NCBI RefSeq assembly: GCF_003148645.1
Contig: NZ_QGGP01000006.1
Coordinates: 1 to 64,000, forward strand
Length of the DNA stretch: 64,000 bases
From: Xanthomarina spongicola
GTDB lineage: Bacteria; Bacteroidota; Bacteroidia; Flavobacteriales; Flavobacteriaceae
Reading direction: 5' to 3'
Position 1 is the first letter of the stretch, and every line of letters starts with the position of its first letter. The notes under the pieces are model-generated. The model was not told the DNA's origin. It made no database searches and was given only the letters and a program-made list of their open reading frames with translations. A program made the position numbers and the translations under genes. This document shows positions 1,844 to 26,435 of the stretch, piece by piece.

Positions 1844-1919
1844 TGTCAGGTCGAGCGCAGTCGAGACCTATTTTTTAATTAAATATTTAAATGACCTCTC
1901 GACTGCGCTCGAGAAGACA
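1844..1919. repeat. REP-like palindromic element, copy 1
   Basis: Two perfect 16-bp inverted arms, TCGAGCGCAGTCGAGA (1851-1866) and its complement (1897-1912), enclose an AT-rich loop. TGTC and GACA lie at the outer ends. The element lies between ccoH and the TauE-like gene, is far more GC-rich than its surroundings, and would form a stable RNA hairpin in the operon transcript. A second copy lies inside purL (23454-23512): its first 23 nt are identical and its last 26 nt match at 23 positions. Confidence 0.9.
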
Positions 1920-2416: not shown

Positions 2417-3841
2417 TTAATGATAACTTCTTGGTGCTAAAAAGTTAACTGTAGTGGTTTCAATTAATTCGTCTCCACTATAAACTTCAAGCATCAATTT
2501 GTTTTTATCTCCTTCAAGTTCTTTTTTATCAATTTCGATAAATAGTGTGCCTTCAGCTAAACCTTGCATTGGAACTTTAAATGTATTTGAATTAGATACC
2601 AGTTTTACTTCTCCTTTATATTTTCTAAGTTTAAAACTAACATCTTCAATTTCTCTACTAGTTTTATTTATTAATTTATAAGTAAATACATTACTAATAA
2701 TATCTCCTTCTTTATGTTCGTAAAGTTGTCCAGGCAGCCTTAAAACAGTAGCTTCAACATCATTTCTTAATAATAACATACCAAAAAGAACACCAGTTAA
2801 TATAACAAGAACAGCAATATAGCCTTTCATTCTTGGAGTAATACGGAACTTTTCTTTCTTTTCAATTTCGTCCTCACTGGCATATCTAATTAAACCTTTT
2901 GGAAGGTTAATACTTTCCATAATATGGTCACACTCATCAATACAAGCTGTACAGTTAACACATTCTAATTGTGTACCATTTCTAATATCAATTCCTGTAG
3001 GACATACATGTACACATTGTAAACAATCAATACAATCTCCATGACCTAGAGCTTCTCTATCTTCATTTTTTCTAAATTTCTTTCTACCACTTTCGCCTTC
3101 TCCTCTCTTATGGTCGTAGGCAACAATAATCGATTTGTTATCTAGAAGAACTCCTTGCAGTCTTCCATAAGGACATGCAATTATGCAAACTTGTTCTCTA
3201 AACCAAGCAAAAACAAAATAGAATACAGCAGTAAATATTAGTAGAGGAAATAGAGTTCCAGTATGTTCTAATGGACCATCTTTAATATATTGAATAAGTT
3301 TATCGCTACCTATCAAGTATGCTAAAAAGACATTAGCAATTATAAATGAAATAAGCAGAAATATAAACCACTTTAAGCTACGTTTCTTGATTTTTTCTGC
3401 ATTCCAATGTTGTCTATCTAGTTTTCGTTGTTTGTTTCTGTCTCCATCTATCCAATATTCTATTCTACGAAAAACCATTTCCATAAATATGGTTTGAGGA
3501 CAAATCCAACCACAGAATATACGCCCAAACCCAACAGTAAAAAGTGCAATAAAAATAACACCAATTATCATGGAAACTACAAACAGATGAAAATCTTGAG
3601 GCCAAAAAGGAAATCCGAATATATTAAAACGTCTTTCTAATATATTAAACATTAGAAATTGATTGCCATTAATTTTAATAAATGGTGAAGCTATAAAGAA
3701 AGCTAATAAGAAATAGCTAACTATTTTTCGGTATTCATAGAGTTTACCACTAGGTTTTTTTGGGTAGATCCAAGCACGTTTACCTTCCTCATTAATAGTG
3801 CCTATCGAGTCTCTAAACGACTCATTTTCTGGAATTTCCAT
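2417..3841 (-). CDS. ccoG: CcoG/FixG cytochrome c oxidase accessory protein
   Basis: This 474-residue polytopic iron-sulfur protein has a CGWICP motif near residue 110 and CIIACPYGRLQ near 220. A ferredoxin-like segment with two Cys clusters (CIDCLQCVHVCP, then CVNCTACIDEC) lies at about residues 268-305, followed by a TM helix and an IgG-like FixG C-terminal domain. CcoG is the membrane cupric reductase proposed to supply Cu(I) for the CuB centre of cbb3 oxidase. It sits between ccoP and ccoH. A strong hairpin (3854-3909) precedes the start codon and may set its expression relative to the oxidase subunits. Confidence 0.97.
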   Translation of the reverse strand: MEIPENESFRDSIGTINEEGKRAWIYPKKPSGKLYEYRKIVSYFLLAFFIASPFIKINGNQFLMFNILERRFNIFGFPFWPQDFHLFVVSMIIGVIFIALFTVGFGRIFCGWICPQTIFMEMVFRRIEYWIDGDRNKQRKLDRQHWNAEKIKKRSLKWFIFLLISFIIANVFLAYLIGSDKLIQYIKDGPLEHTGTLFPLLIFTAVFYFVFAWFREQVCIIACPYGRLQGVLLDNKSIIVAYDHKRGEGESGRKKFRKNEDREALGHGDCIDCLQCVHVCPTGIDIRNGTQLECVNCTACIDECDHIMESINLPKGLIRYASEDEIEKKEKFRITPRMKGYIAVLVILTGVLFGMLLLRNDVEATVLRLPGQLYEHKEGDIISNVFTYKLINKTSREIEDVSFKLRKYKGEVKLVSNSNTFKVPMQGLAEGTLFIEIDKKELEGDKNKLMLEVYSGDELIETTTVNFLAPRSYH

Positions 3842-3853
3842 AATACTAAATTA

Positions 3854-3909
3854 TAGATTCAAGAATTAAGACATTTGGTTGGAAGATATGGTCTTAATTC
3901 TTGAATCTA
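3854..3909. repeat. 19-bp inverted repeat between ccoP and ccoG
   Basis: TAGATTCAAGAATTAAGAC (3854-3872) is followed after 18 nt by its exact complement (3891-3909). It sits between the ccoP stop and the ccoG start. In RNA it forms a 19-bp stem without a U tail, so it looks more like a processing or mRNA-stability element or a REP-type repeat than a terminator. The arm resembles the repeats flanking the S23-type gene at 16210-16610, sharing TAGATTCAAGA and (T)YAAGAC. Confidence 0.85.
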
Positions 3910-3928
3910 GTTTTTAAAATCTTAAATT

Positions 3929-4804
3929 TTATTCTTTCCAAATCTCACCTTCTGCTTCTTTTGGTTTAGCAGGTGTGGTGCCTTTAAATTGTAAAAGATA
4001 ACTTGATACTTGTGCAATTTCTGAAGGTTTTAAACTTTGCTTCCAGGCAATCATCCCTTTACCATTTCTACCTCCTTCTGAAACTGTTTTAAAAATACCT
4101 TTAATGTCACCACCAAGAATCCAATATTCGTCTGTTAAGTTTGGTCCAATACCACCTCCACCATCTGCCATATGGCAAGCAACGCAGTTGGCTTCATAAA
4201 TAGCTTTACCATTACTTAAATCTGATGCACTAGTTAATAACTCTACAGTGTTAAAATCTACTAAATCTTTAGCCGTTTTTTTGTATTCTTCTATTGCAAT
4301 TTTTGCTTCAGCATATTCTGTTTCTAATTCATCGTATTGGTTTTCACCATTAAACACTTCGAATCTCACTAAATAAACAACAGCAAAAACTATAGATGCA
4401 TAAAAAGCATATAACCACCAAGGTGGTAAATCGTTATCAAGCTCACGAATACCATCATAGTTATGGTCTAATATAATTTCATGTTCTTCTTTAATAGGTT
4501 TTTGACCTAAGGATTTTTCATATAAAGATTTAATCCAAGTAATAAACTTTGGAGTTTTAGTTTCTTTTGCATCAAATCTTGCTTTACCTTTTTCATCTAA
4601 ACTTTGGTATAAAATATTTTCTAATGCATTTACTATGGCTTCAATGGCAATTAATAGAAAAAGTACAAAAACCAAAAATAATAGTACCATGGGATACTCT
4701 ATAAATGCAGGTTGTCTACCAGAATTGGCAAAGTATTCTACTAGTCCGAAAATGATAAAGAATACAACTGGTACTCTTACCCATGAAGGGATTAAATTTC
4801 TCAT
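3929..4804 (-). CDS. ccoP: cbb3 oxidase cytochrome c subunit CcoP (single CxxCH)
   Basis: The protein has 291 residues. Two hydrophobic segments lie near the N-terminus (about 7-25 and 37-60), a soluble loop follows, then another TM helix near residue 130. The C-terminal cytochrome c domain has one haem-binding motif, CVACH, near residue 205 and a possible axial Met in the GKGMIAW segment. CcoP passes electrons to CcoO/CcoN. Classical proteobacterial CcoP has two haem c motifs; only one is present here. Its ATG overlaps the ccoQ stop by 4 nt, indicating translational coupling. Confidence 0.95.
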   Translation of the reverse strand: MRNLIPSWVRVPVVFFIIFGLVEYFANSGRQPAFIEYPMVLLFLVFVLFLLIAIEAIVNALENILYQSLDEKGKARFDAKETKTPKFITWIKSLYEKSLGQKPIKEEHEIILDHNYDGIRELDNDLPPWWLYAFYASIVFAVVYLVRFEVFNGENQYDELETEYAEAKIAIEEYKKTAKDLVDFNTVELLTSASDLSNGKAIYEANCVACHMADGGGGIGPNLTDEYWILGGDIKGIFKTVSEGGRNGKGMIAWKQSLKPSEIAQVSSYLLQFKGTTPAKPKEAEGEIWKE

Positions 4805-22700: not shown

Positions 22701-25700
22701 TTATTTGTTCTCAATCCATTTTCTAGCATTCACAAAAGCTTCTAACCAAGGCGAAACTTCGTCTTTTCTATTTTCAGGATAGTTAGCCCAATTCCATTGG
22801 AAGGTGGAACGTTCAATATGTGGCATGGTTACTAAATGTCTTCCTGTTTTATCGCACATCATAGCAGTATTGAAATCTGAACCATTTGGATTATTTGGAT
22901 ATCCTTCATAGCCATATTTTGCAACAATGTTGTAGTTTTCTTCAGACTCAGGTAAACTAAATTTACCTTCTCCATGAGAAATCCATACGCCTAATTCTGT
23001 TCCTGATAAAGTAGATAACATGATGGAGTTATTTTCTTGAATTTTTACAGAAGTAAATGAACTTTCGTGTTTTTTAGAATTGTTATGAACTAATTTCCCA
23101 TGAACTTTATGTTCTGGATTTACCAATTCCAATTCCATCCAAAGTTGCGCACCATTACAGATACCAACAGAAAGGGTGTCTTCTCTTTTGAAGAAATTCT
23201 TTAAGGCTGTATTTGCTTTTTCGTTATATAAAAAGGCTCCAGCCCAACCTTTTGCAGAACCTAAAACATCTGAATTTGAAAATCCTCCAACAGCTCCAAT
23301 AAACTGTATGTCTTCTAGAGTTTCACGACCAGAAATTAAATCGGTCATGTGTACGTCTTTGACATCGAAACCTGCTAAATACATGGCGTTTGCCATTTCA
23401 CGTTCAGAGTTTGAGCCTTTTTCACGTAAAATGGCTGCTTTAGGTTTTACTCTTATCTCCTCGAGCGTAGTCGAGAGGTTATCAAGAGATCTCGACTGCG
23501 CTCGACCTGACAACACATCTTCTATTTTTCCTGTAAAATGTTTAGGAAAAATATATTGTAAAGGTTGCTTTTTATAATTATCAAAACGGTTTTGAGCTAA
23601 ACCGTTAGCCGTTTGTTTTTGATCGAGTAGGAAGGATGTTTTGTACCAAACATCACGTAAACGTGAAACTGTTAAAGTGAAAACTTCATTGTTATTAATG
23701 AAGCTTAATACGTCGCTTTCTTGAACTTTTCCTATGTTGAAGAATTCAATATGAGCATCAGTTAATACTTGTTCAATAGAATCATCTTTTGATTGAAAAA
23801 CAATACCAGCATTTTCAGAGAATAAGAGTTTTATAGAATCTTCTTCACCTAAATTGGTTAGGTCTAATTCAGCACCTAAATTAACATCAGCAAAACACAT
23901 TTCCAGCAGTGTAGTAATTAAACCACCTGAAGCTACATCATGTCCAGCAACAATTTTATCTGTTTTAATTAAATCTTGGATGGTATTAAAAACTTTTTTT
24001 ACAAAATTAGTATTTGTAATATCTGGAGTTTCATTACCAATAGCATTTAAAGATTGATTGAATGAACTTCCTCCTAGTTTAAAGTTGTCTTGAGATACAT
24101 TTATATAATAGATATTACCTGCGTTTTTTTGAAAAACAGGCTCTACAACTTTGGAAATATCGTTACAGTTGCCAGCAGCAGAAATAATAACTGTTCCGGG
24201 AGAAATAACATCTTCATTAGGATATTTTTGTTTCATGGAAAGCGAATCTTTACCAGTTGGAACATTAATCCCTAAATCGATAGCAAATTCTGAAACTGCT
24301 TCAACTGCTTCATAAAGTCGTGCATCTTCACCTTCATTTTTACAAGGCCACATCCAGTTTGCAGATAGCGATATACTTTGTAAACCATCTTTTAAAGGTG
24401 CCCAAATAATGTTGGTTAACGATTCTGTAATAGCATTTCTACTTCCAGCTTTGGGTGATATTAATCCAGAAATTGGTGCATGACCAACAGAAGTAGCAAT
24501 ACCTTCTTTTCCTTTATAATCTAAAGCCATAACACCACAATTATTTAATGGTAATTGTAAAGGTCCAGCACATTGTTGTTTAGCAACTTTCCCACCAACA
24601 CAACGGTCTACTTTGTTAGTTAGCCAGTCTTTACAAGCCACAGCTTCTAACTGTAAAACTTGCTCTAAATAAATATGGAAATTCTTAGATTTATAACGAG
24701 GGTTCTTATATTTTCTTACAACTGTTTTGTCTGTCATGATGGTTTTAGGAGAGCTACCAAACATATCTTCAAGAGCTAAATCCATTGGTTTTTCGCCAGT
24801 AGCTTTAGATTCAAAAGTAAATCTGTTATCACCTGTAACATCACCAACAGTGTACATTGGTGAACGCTCACGTTCTGCAATTTTATTTAGTGTATCAATA
24901 TGTTTTTCGGCAATAACTAATCCCATTCTTTCTTGAGATTCGTTGCCAATAATTTCTTTTGCTGAAAGAGTTGGGTCTCCAACTGGCAATTTGTCTAAGT
25001 CGATTTTACCTCCAGTATCTTCAACTAATTCCGATAAACAATTTAAATGACCACCAGCTCCATGATCGTGAATAGAAACAATAAAATTTTCATCACTTTC
25101 TACCATGCCACGAACAGCATTTGCTGCACGTTTTTGCATTTCTGGGTTTGAACGTTGTACAGCGTTTAGTTCAATTCCTGAGGCAAATTCTCCTGTATCT
25201 GCAGAAGAAACAGCAGCGCCTCCCATTCCAATTCTGTAGTTTTCACCACCAAGTATGACTATTTTATCGCCTACTTTTGGAGTATCTTTTATTGCTTGTT
25301 CCGCTTTTCCGTAGCCAATACCACCAGCTTGCATGATGACTTTATCGTATCCTAATTTTCTGGCTTCAGATATGCTTGAAGATGAGTTTTCTTCGTGTTC
25401 AAAAGTTAAAACGGAACCACAAATAAGTGGTTGTCCAAATTTATTTCCAAAGTCTGATGCGCCATTACTCGCTTTTATTAAAATATCCATTGGTGTTTGG
25501 TACAACCAAGGTCGTGCTTTCATTTTTTCTTCCCAAGGACGTGTTTCTTCTAATCTGGAATAAGACGTCATGTACACAGCTGTTCCAGCTAGTGGTAAAG
25601 ATCCTTTTCCTCCAGCCAATCTATCGCGTATTTCACCACCAGAACCTGTTGCAGCTCCATTAAAAGGTTCAACTGTTGTTGGGAAATTATGAGTTTCTGC

Positions 25701-26435
25701 TTTAAGAGAAATAACAGAGTCAAATTCTTTTATTTGATAATAGTCTGGTTTATCTGCTGTTTTTGGAGCAAATTGCTCTACCCTTGGACCTTTTACAAAA
25801 GCAACATTGTCTTTGTATGCTGAAACAATATCGTTAGGATGCTGTTTAGAGGTTTCTTTTATTAATTTAAAAAGTGATGAAGGTTTTTCTACACCATCTA
25901 TTACAAAAGTTCCATTAAAGATTTTATGACGACAGTGTTCTGAATTTACTTGTGAAAAACCAAACACCTCAGAATCTGTTAATGGTCTCCCTATTTTTTT
26001 TGAAACATCTTCTAGATACGTTACTTCTTCGTCACTTAATGATAATCCTTCTGCTTGATTGTAAGCTGAAATATCTTCAATATTAAGGATTGCTTCAGGT
26101 TGTATGTTTATAGTAAATGATTCTTGATTCAATCCATCATATTTTTCAGAAATCATTGGATCAAAATCTTTGAAGTCTTCAGAAATTGCTTTAAATTCTT
26201 CAATTCTGATGATGCCTTCGATTCCCATATTTTGGGTAATTTCAACAGCATTCGTACTCCAAGGAGTAATCATGGCTGCACGAGGACCAACAAAAAAAGC
26301 ATCCAGAGATGCTTGTTCTATTTTTGGCTGATTGCCAAATAACCACACTAATTTAGAGGTAGTTTCAGTTGATAATTCTTTTGTTGCTTGAACAGCAAAA
26401 ATTTTACTGTTTTGGTTTCCGAAGAAATGAATCAT
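22701..26435 (-). CDS. purL: Phosphoribosylformylglycinamidine synthase (large, glutaminase-fused) with an in-frame palindromic insert
   Basis: The 1244-residue enzyme converts FGAR, glutamine and ATP to FGAM in purine synthesis. It contains the FGAM-synthase core with duplicated AIRS domains (the GGxGYGKAEQA and KAETHNFPTTVEPFNGA segments) and a C-terminal class I glutaminase from about residue 1000. Its nucleophile is in GICNGAQLW near 1094 and its His in MPHIERS near 1204. Residues about 975-994, in the linker before the glutaminase, are encoded by a REP-like palindrome (23454-23512) matching the one at 1844. A -7 box (TAAATTTG on the minus strand, 26480-26473) lies 37 nt before the ATG. 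Confidence 0.97.
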   Translation of the reverse strand: MIHFFGNQNSKIFAVQATKELSTETTSKLVWLFGNQPKIEQASLDAFFVGPRAAMITPWSTNAVEITQNMGIEGIIRIEEFKAISEDFKDFDPMISEKYDGLNQESFTINIQPEAILNIEDISAYNQAEGLSLSDEEVTYLEDVSKKIGRPLTDSEVFGFSQVNSEHCRHKIFNGTFVIDGVEKPSSLFKLIKETSKQHPNDIVSAYKDNVAFVKGPRVEQFAPKTADKPDYYQIKEFDSVISLKAETHNFPTTVEPFNGAATGSGGEIRDRLAGGKGSLPLAGTAVYMTSYSRLEETRPWEEKMKARPWLYQTPMDILIKASNGASDFGNKFGQPLICGSVLTFEHEENSSSSISEARKLGYDKVIMQAGGIGYGKAEQAIKDTPKVGDKIVILGGENYRIGMGGAAVSSADTGEFASGIELNAVQRSNPEMQKRAANAVRGMVESDENFIVSIHDHGAGGHLNCLSELVEDTGGKIDLDKLPVGDPTLSAKEIIGNESQERMGLVIAEKHIDTLNKIAERERSPMYTVGDVTGDNRFTFESKATGEKPMDLALEDMFGSSPKTIMTDKTVVRKYKNPRYKSKNFHIYLEQVLQLEAVACKDWLTNKVDRCVGGKVAKQQCAGPLQLPLNNCGVMALDYKGKEGIATSVGHAPISGLISPKAGSRNAITESLTNIIWAPLKDGLQSISLSANWMWPCKNEGEDARLYEAVEAVSEFAIDLGINVPTGKDSLSMKQKYPNEDVISPGTVIISAAGNCNDISKVVEPVFQKNAGNIYYINVSQDNFKLGGSSFNQSLNAIGNETPDITNTNFVKKVFNTIQDLIKTDKIVAGHDVASGGLITTLLEMCFADVNLGAELDLTNLGEEDSIKLLFSENAGIVFQSKDDSIEQVLTDAHIEFFNIGKVQESDVLSFINNNEVFTLTVSRLRDVWYKTSFLLDQKQTANGLAQNRFDNYKKQPLQYIFPKHFTGKIEDVLSGRAQSRSLDNLSTTLEEIRVKPKAAILREKGSNSEREMANAMYLAGFDVKDVHMTDLISGRETLEDIQFIGAVGGFSNSDVLGSAKGWAGAFLYNEKANTALKNFFKREDTLSVGICNGAQLWMELELVNPEHKVHGKLVHNNSKKHESSFTSVKIQENNSIMLSTLSGTELGVWISHGEGKFSLPESEENYNIVAKYGYEGYPNNPNGSDFNTAMMCDKTGRHLVTMPHIERSTFQWNWANYPENRKDEVSPWLEAFVNARKWIENK
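23454..23512 (-). repeat. REP-like palindromic element, copy 2, inside purL
   Basis: On the coding (minus) strand the first 23 nt equal the start of the element at 1844-1919. The last 26 nt match its end at 23 positions. The loop is 10 nt instead of 27. Inverted cores are at 23490-23505 and 23461-23476 (one mismatch). It is translated in frame without a stop and adds about 20 residues to PurL. Confidence 0.9.

Follow-up and report, generated by a model that had tools for sequence, protein, structure and literature searches.

The 64,000-nt stretch of Xanthomarina spongicola DNA analysed here (the window) contains a complete purL gene for phosphoribosylformylglycinamidine synthase (positions 22701–26435, minus strand), identified from its open reading frame, its translation and its Pfam matches. 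The frame is open for 1244 codons, the 1244-residue product matches five PurL-type Pfam families (GATase_5, FGAR-AT_PurM_N-like, AIRS_C, FGAR-AT_linker and FGAR-AT_N), and a search of the genome for PurL returned this one match. Ahead of the glutaminase domain, which begins at residue 997, lies a linker (residues 966–998; 23442–23540, minus strand) that varies in length among 156 PurL genes and is a recurrent insertion site. Within this linker, just before the domain, a 59-bp element at 23454–23512 is read in frame as residues 975–994, as the earlier note on this DNA had proposed. On the purL strand it consists of a 26-nt unit, TGTCAGGTCGAGCGCAGTCGAGATCT (23512–23487), followed by 7 nt and by an inverted 26-nt unit (23479–23454). 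The first unit (23487–23512, minus strand) belongs to family A, is read as LSGRAQSRS and has an alignment score of 24 out of a possible 26 against the A1 consensus; the second (23454–23479, plus strand) belongs to family A2, with which it scores 20, and its minus-strand reading is NLSTTLEEI. The 7-nt spacer (23480–23486, no strand assigned) is the hairpin apex, as judged from sequence and fold.

The mRNA of the purL element folds at −28.8 kcal/mol (z = −3.3), lower than any of 200 shuffles. The second arm carries a mismatch to the first, from which we infer that the hairpin need not be strictly constrained within the gene. That the insert is translated, adding about 20 residues to a flexible linker, is inferred from the open frame of a single-copy gene alone, without protein data. 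In an AlphaFold2 model of residues 575–1244, of mediocre to poor quality overall (mean pLDDT 68.6), residues 957–994 have pLDDT under 50 and form mainly coil, with a helix on one side and the first strand of the glutaminase domain on the other.

The same inverted pair occurs at 1844–1919 (no strand assigned), between open reading frames at 1119–1820 and 1925–2377. The first 23 nt of the first purL unit are those of this intergenic copy, and the purL element agrees with 1844–1872 at 93% of 29 positions and with 1891–1917 at 89% of 27, in line with the counts given previously. The element had been described as a palindrome; it is a genuine REP-like repeat, built as a pair of inverted REP-like units rather than as one palindrome. 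Allowing up to three mismatches, a 16-nt arm pattern occurs at four sites in the window, compared with a mean of 0.08 and a maximum of 1 in 100 shuffles; with one free position, it occurs at 11 sites in the 3.16-Mb genome, versus none for a control pattern read backwards. Both copies in the window (1844–1919 and 23454–23512) are head-out pairs. Single units are common in a scan of this genome for the unit core, and the genome-wide share of dimers was not counted. Elsewhere in the window, an inverted repeat at 3847–3916 (26-nt arms, 88% complementary, 18 nt apart) lies between open reading frames at 2417–3841 and 3929–4804 and is possibly a terminator or another palindromic element.

The units are 26–28 nt long, with a YGTC head, a common core near GAGCGNAGTCGA or GAGCGAAGCGAAG, and a stem that we read by eye as 5 outer and 2 inner base pairs, the outer stem differing among families A to H. 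Their consensuses were fixed partly after the linkers had been seen, and families F, G and H rest on few copies. The head is TGTC in the first unit of the purL pair, TATC in the second, and CGTC or TGTC in B units; after the head, B and C units begin with AT, and those of A and D to F do not. Of 72 units parsed from 88 B/C-type matches in the genus, 62 have a complementary inner 2-bp stem, where shuffling gives 33.7 on average and 46 at most; the pairs are mostly GC/GC, AC/GT, GT/AC and AT/AT. This covariation indicates that the hairpin was retained while its letters changed, with the reservation that the units are related and hence are not independent events. Four to five of the six reading frames are open in each unit (mean 4.56 over nine consensuses); shuffled units have 4.24, and random 27-mers drawn from the window have 3.47. 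A special coding design of the units was rejected, as the number of open frames is little above that of shuffled units and is mostly a matter of base composition; the openness itself eases the survival of units in genes.

To survey the linker, measured from HFTGK to RP, we used 156 PurL genes: that of X. spongicola, seven from the same genus, the best 80 of 587 relatives, and 28 plus 40 from a search of the family. That family search matched 212 of 219 genomes and only its 70 top matches were used, which favours close relatives. By inference from its relatives, X. spongicola falls within Flavobacteriaceae near Bizionia. A class-wide search matched 118 of 119 genomes, mostly partially and to a shorter PurL type, and its full-length genes (L168–L180) remained outside the linker analysis. 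Linkers are 14–16 residues long in 93 genes, 17–24 in 44 and 31–49 in 19. With eight consensuses scored, units of five families reach a score of at least 14 in 29 of the 156 linkers (27 of 154 distinct proteins), comprising all 19 linkers of 31 or more residues but only one of the 93 short ones, and not one of 6,240 length-matched windows, drawn from these genes as controls, reaches 14 (maximum 13). Scanning 573,186 nt of purL sequence with six arm consensuses gave 23 matches within linkers (16 genes) and 2 elsewhere at three mismatches, 37 and 6 at four, and 53 and 10 at five; reversed consensuses gave 0, 0 and 1, the single match lying outside the linker.

As peptides, the long linkers are not random: A-type linkers read as LSGRAxSRxLDNLSTxL, B-type as DVIAxxxKQS followed mostly by APRND or TPRND, and C-type as DVIQSASEES. 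Several mid-length linkers below the threshold resemble decayed units and were not counted (for example L020, L022, L041, L043, L100, L101, L109 and L111), and two counted carriers, L066 and L081, are themselves degenerate. A recurrent peptide resembling TSSDS...NRIEKP (DNA TTCGAGTGATTC...CGTATCGA) was observed in the linkers of L101, L109, L111 and L067, and less clearly in L100, L129 and L045; it probably represents a D-type unit whose apex is unusual, and it was left uncounted as it stays under the threshold. The linker of L155 (G116:C31:41583-45245) reads LTPSPSPKERGA (DNA CCCCAGCCCCTCTCCAAAGGAAAGGGGA) and looks like an unrelated G+C-rich palindromic repeat. The insertion reading would have been undermined had the same linker been conserved at the protein level in the PurL of distant relatives, and this was not seen: the linker is variable, 93 of the 156 genes having 14–16 residues there, and different units occupy it in other species. 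That the similarity is fortuitous, or an assembly error, can be practically dismissed, as no shuffle out of 100 reaches the count in the window, no control window out of 6,240 reaches the threshold, and the 27 distinct carrier genes come from separate assemblies; we found no point in support of it.

The recency of the units was judged from synonymous sites. Among codons for the same residue, the identical fraction in B units is 0.917 for the left unit and 0.868 for the right end, and the remainder of the gene gives 0.548 (10 of 12 distinct carriers); in A units it is 0.900 versus 0.573 (4 of 7 carriers), and in C units 0.833 versus 0.594 (5 of 5 carriers). Units are therefore much younger than the common ancestors of the genes that carry them, or have been homogenised with other copies. 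A FastTree phylogeny of the 154 distinct PurL genes, from which the two insertion loops (the linker and a second loop, described below) were left out, requires at least 25 state changes for the 27 carriers, compared with a mean of 26.5 and a minimum of 24 in 200 label shuffles; shuffles were as low as the tree count in 15 of 200 cases for families and in 47 of 200 for presence. Parsimony on this tree cannot distinguish gain from loss. Phylogenetic inheritance of the carrier state was considered and found to be slight, the tree count being near that of shuffled labels.

Close relatives differ in what their linkers contain. The A pair of X. spongicola contrasts with a C unit in L019 (91.7% identity), a left-C and right-B linker in L055 (Tamlana nanhaiensis) contrasts with a short linker in L154 (94.3%), and L041 and L155 have unlike linkers at 96.6% identity. 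None of the PurL genes examined comes from a very close relative whose linker is empty; in the nearest ones, other units or unclassified linkers are present. Different families occupy the linker in species of a single genus, those genus genomes with B or C units in purL hold further B or C copies elsewhere, and the A core is present in six of eight genus genomes. The codon identities, together with the tree changes, point to recent and repeated acquisition rather than to one old insertion, and the reading of the element as an in-frame repeat, given in the earlier note, is supported. A single old insertion, made in the ancestor of the family, passed down vertically and lost independently many times, could account for the one left junction shared by B units across genera. 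This junction has GA ahead of YGTC, read as D-V, and is present in 13 of 13 B rows, as well as in 3 of 5 C rows and 1 of 2 D rows. A single old insertion is strongly disfavoured by synonymous codon identities far above those of the rest of the gene, and also by the different families at the same place within one genus and by the 93 short linkers, and we regard it as very improbable.

The shared junction also bears on how units come to replace one another. If gene conversion predominated, units from elsewhere in the genome would recombine into a resident unit via the shared core, with few true new insertions, and units would be replaced, made chimaeric or nested at one fixed point. Such traits are present: the left junction is common to all B rows and to some C and D rows, the L055 linker is a left-C, right-B chimaera, and nested units were judged by eye in L107, L034, a 2-oxoacid dehydrogenase E2 gene of X. 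spongicola and an RND pump gene of genome G002. That junction is nonetheless missing from two C rows, from one D row and from the A rows, some linkers contain units although those of near relatives do not (L116 versus L127, L039 versus L053), unit junctions in genes other than purL come after T, A or C, and ordinary insertion can also nest. Gene conversion as the main process remains possible, and we consider it less likely than not.

PurL contains a second landing loop at residues 343–363 (25347–25409, minus strand), where X. spongicola has no unit (LTFEHEENSSSSISEARKLGY) and some relatives do; the start of this loop, FEHEEN, aligns opposite a gap in the solved relative 9n9w. The arm matches listed outside the linker all lie at gene nt 1056–1177 (about residues 347–360 of the reference), and seven genes score at least 14 in this loop, a stretch that the null windows left out. 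L111 and L114 have units read as VTLSAVEGS and SMSAVEGS, L107 has a D unit, and L081 has several E arms; relatives of note at this loop are L026, L041, L067, L081, L111 and L114. Throughout the PurL alignment, internal insertions of more than seven residues were found at the two loops only (one gene has a 9-residue N-terminal extension), a confinement that fits a filter by tolerance.

Beyond PurL, the core scan of the X. spongicola genome gave 29 matches versus 3 for the control. By reading, 26 of these are units at 22 loci, and L209, L210 and L211 have no flanking stems. Five of the 22 loci are in frame in conserved genes: purL, a beta-ketoacyl synthase with an in-frame A pair, MetH with a single A2 unit in the activation domain (read SPRAQSRG), an AcrB-family RND pump (VTLSAVERS), and a 2-oxoacid dehydrogenase E2 whose linker contains a D unit with an E arm inside. 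Of seven B/C-pattern sites, one falls within a second E2-like gene and is read as NVIQSDSEES, bringing the genes with in-frame units to six; another, L352, is in an open frame but ahead of its first Met, and we treated it as intergenic. The earlier note had proposed a search for copies in other genes, and with the five found here and the second PurL loop the finding is larger than it had described.

The corresponding loops of relatives were judged by eye, without scoring, in the five genes other than purL. The ketoacyl synthase loop (18 rows) has C units in G002, G003 and G005 and an A pair plus a C unit in G004, with a base length of 21–22 residues in 10 rows and three rows of intermediate length. 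For the E2 loop (27 rows), a clean D unit was seen in G004 and a decayed one in G005, with none evident in 24 rows, and the second E2 (8 rows) has a C unit in X. spongicola, G001, G004 and G005. In the RND loop (16 rows, 4 of them unread), G002 has a nested unit and G012 a pair, B-like units are present in G005, G006 and G007, and G001 and G003 have composites; none is evident in G009 and G010. The composite loops, L326 (G001) and L331 (G003), span 69 and 80 residues between RYK and NWR compared with 50 in X. spongicola, and have the look of several palindromic units, nested or side by side, at a single place. In MetH (22 rows), another unit is present in G003 and G005, and the loops of G001 and G002 (L263 and L264) contain short tandem repeats (ITNNQQPTTNNQ; IQNSEFRIQN), which indicates that this loop accepts microsatellites too.

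This distribution also bears on whether the insert is selected for a function, such as a ribosome-pausing mRNA hairpin between PurL domains or a usefully longer linker. The X. spongicola element does fold well (z = −3.3) and lies directly before the glutaminase domain. A function of this kind is nevertheless hard to reconcile with the 127 of 154 distinct genes that have no unit at threshold, with the occurrence of half units and decayed units, with simple repeats taking the place of units in the MetH loops of G001 and G002, and with units of the same families in unrelated proteins, and we consider it improbable.

Among described systems, the closest are the CGTC-tagged REPs, which the available portions of one study (BMC Genomics 2013; PMC3733652) describe as short stem-loops with a CGTC or often TGTC head, a stem of 8–9 bp almost always with A-T at positions 1 and 2, a loop of 4–5 nt and a tail that is mostly CCA. 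According to the same portions, these REPs are mostly head-to-head dimers without an associated transposase and occur in Bacteroidetes, G. forsetii included; intragenic REPs are found in several species, with flexible linkers or loops suggested as sites, and different REPs lie near the same recB site in two Xanthomonas species (PMC3733652). The head criterion is met here by the first unit of the purL pair and by B units, the second unit of the pair having TATC. As far as those portions allow comparison, the present units differ in that many families turn over at the same loops, in six genes across the genus and with nesting and a chimaera; in that turnover at the PurL loop spans many genera; and in stem and loop sizes that, as read, depart from 8–9 bp and 4–5 nt. 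The supposition that such insertions had not been described is only partly upheld: intragenic REPs of several species and CGTC REPs of Bacteroidetes are on record in PMC3733652. Literature available mostly as abstracts yielded no report of recurrent in-frame units in Flavobacteriaceae genes, and, as far as these searches show, many-family turnover at the same loops of several core genes, nesting and synonymous-site recency are new.

Rickettsia palindromic elements (RPEs) are about 100–150 bp long and are located at protein surfaces. They lie in frame within genes that likely stay functional, as summarised in the available portions of PMC3733652. The likeness to them drawn in the earlier note holds as an analogy: in-frame palindromic insertion within open reading frames is met in six X. 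spongicola genes, the units here are shorter and from another phylum, and the resemblance is one of mode of working, not of compared sequences. X. spongicola, unlike Rickettsia, is not known to be obligate intracellular.

REPINs are inverted pairs of REP units dispersed in genomes, a trait shared by the elements described here. The REPIN/RAYT requirement of a cognate Y1 transposase flanked by repeats is not met: Y1_Tnp (PF01797) had no match in the X. spongicola genome at an E-value of 0.001, one or more were found in four of eight genus genomes, and no units flanked the Y1_Tnp genes at the five loci fetched from the genus. Movement driven by RAYTs is therefore unsupported. The absence of a link to a Y1 transposase, the only transposase class looked at, agrees with what is reported for CGTC REPs in the portions of PMC3733652 available.

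We consider it very probable that the purL element is an inserted, in-frame, head-out REP-like pair, and one case of a wide insertion of units that are kept only in frame in permissive loops. Under this explanation, REP-like units, which normally lie between genes, would spread through the genomes of Flavobacteriaceae and land in many places, moved by an enzyme or process that is unidentified. Insertions into genes would last only where the frame is kept, no stop arises in frame and the loop tolerates extra residues; that the inserts are neutral for the enzyme and that other insertions are selected against are inferences. The sequence and frame of the element, the recurrence, recency and number of families of the units, and their in-frame presence in six genes of X. 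spongicola are directly shown. Tolerant loops would be struck repeatedly, with units of other families replacing, joining or nesting inside earlier ones and old units decaying.

A unit already in place may draw in others through homology, as the shared left junction in PurL, the chimaera and the nested cases suggest. Loops of core enzymes that tolerate insertions might then serve as standing landing pads, with units of other families being copied into a resident unit through homology of the common core. We put this proposal forward only tentatively; if it is true, selfish DNA would keep replacing the protein sequence of interdomain linkers in this family, over times no longer than those between sister species. 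On the explanation we prefer, core enzymes keep receiving new peptide sequence from mobile palindromic DNA. The events are plentiful (at least 25 changes among 154 PurL genes), which opens a quantitative study of accepting loops, frames and the speed of turnover. They offer naturally occurring insertions from which the permissive sites of enzymes can be mapped, as well as a handle on the movement of REPs without a known transposase.
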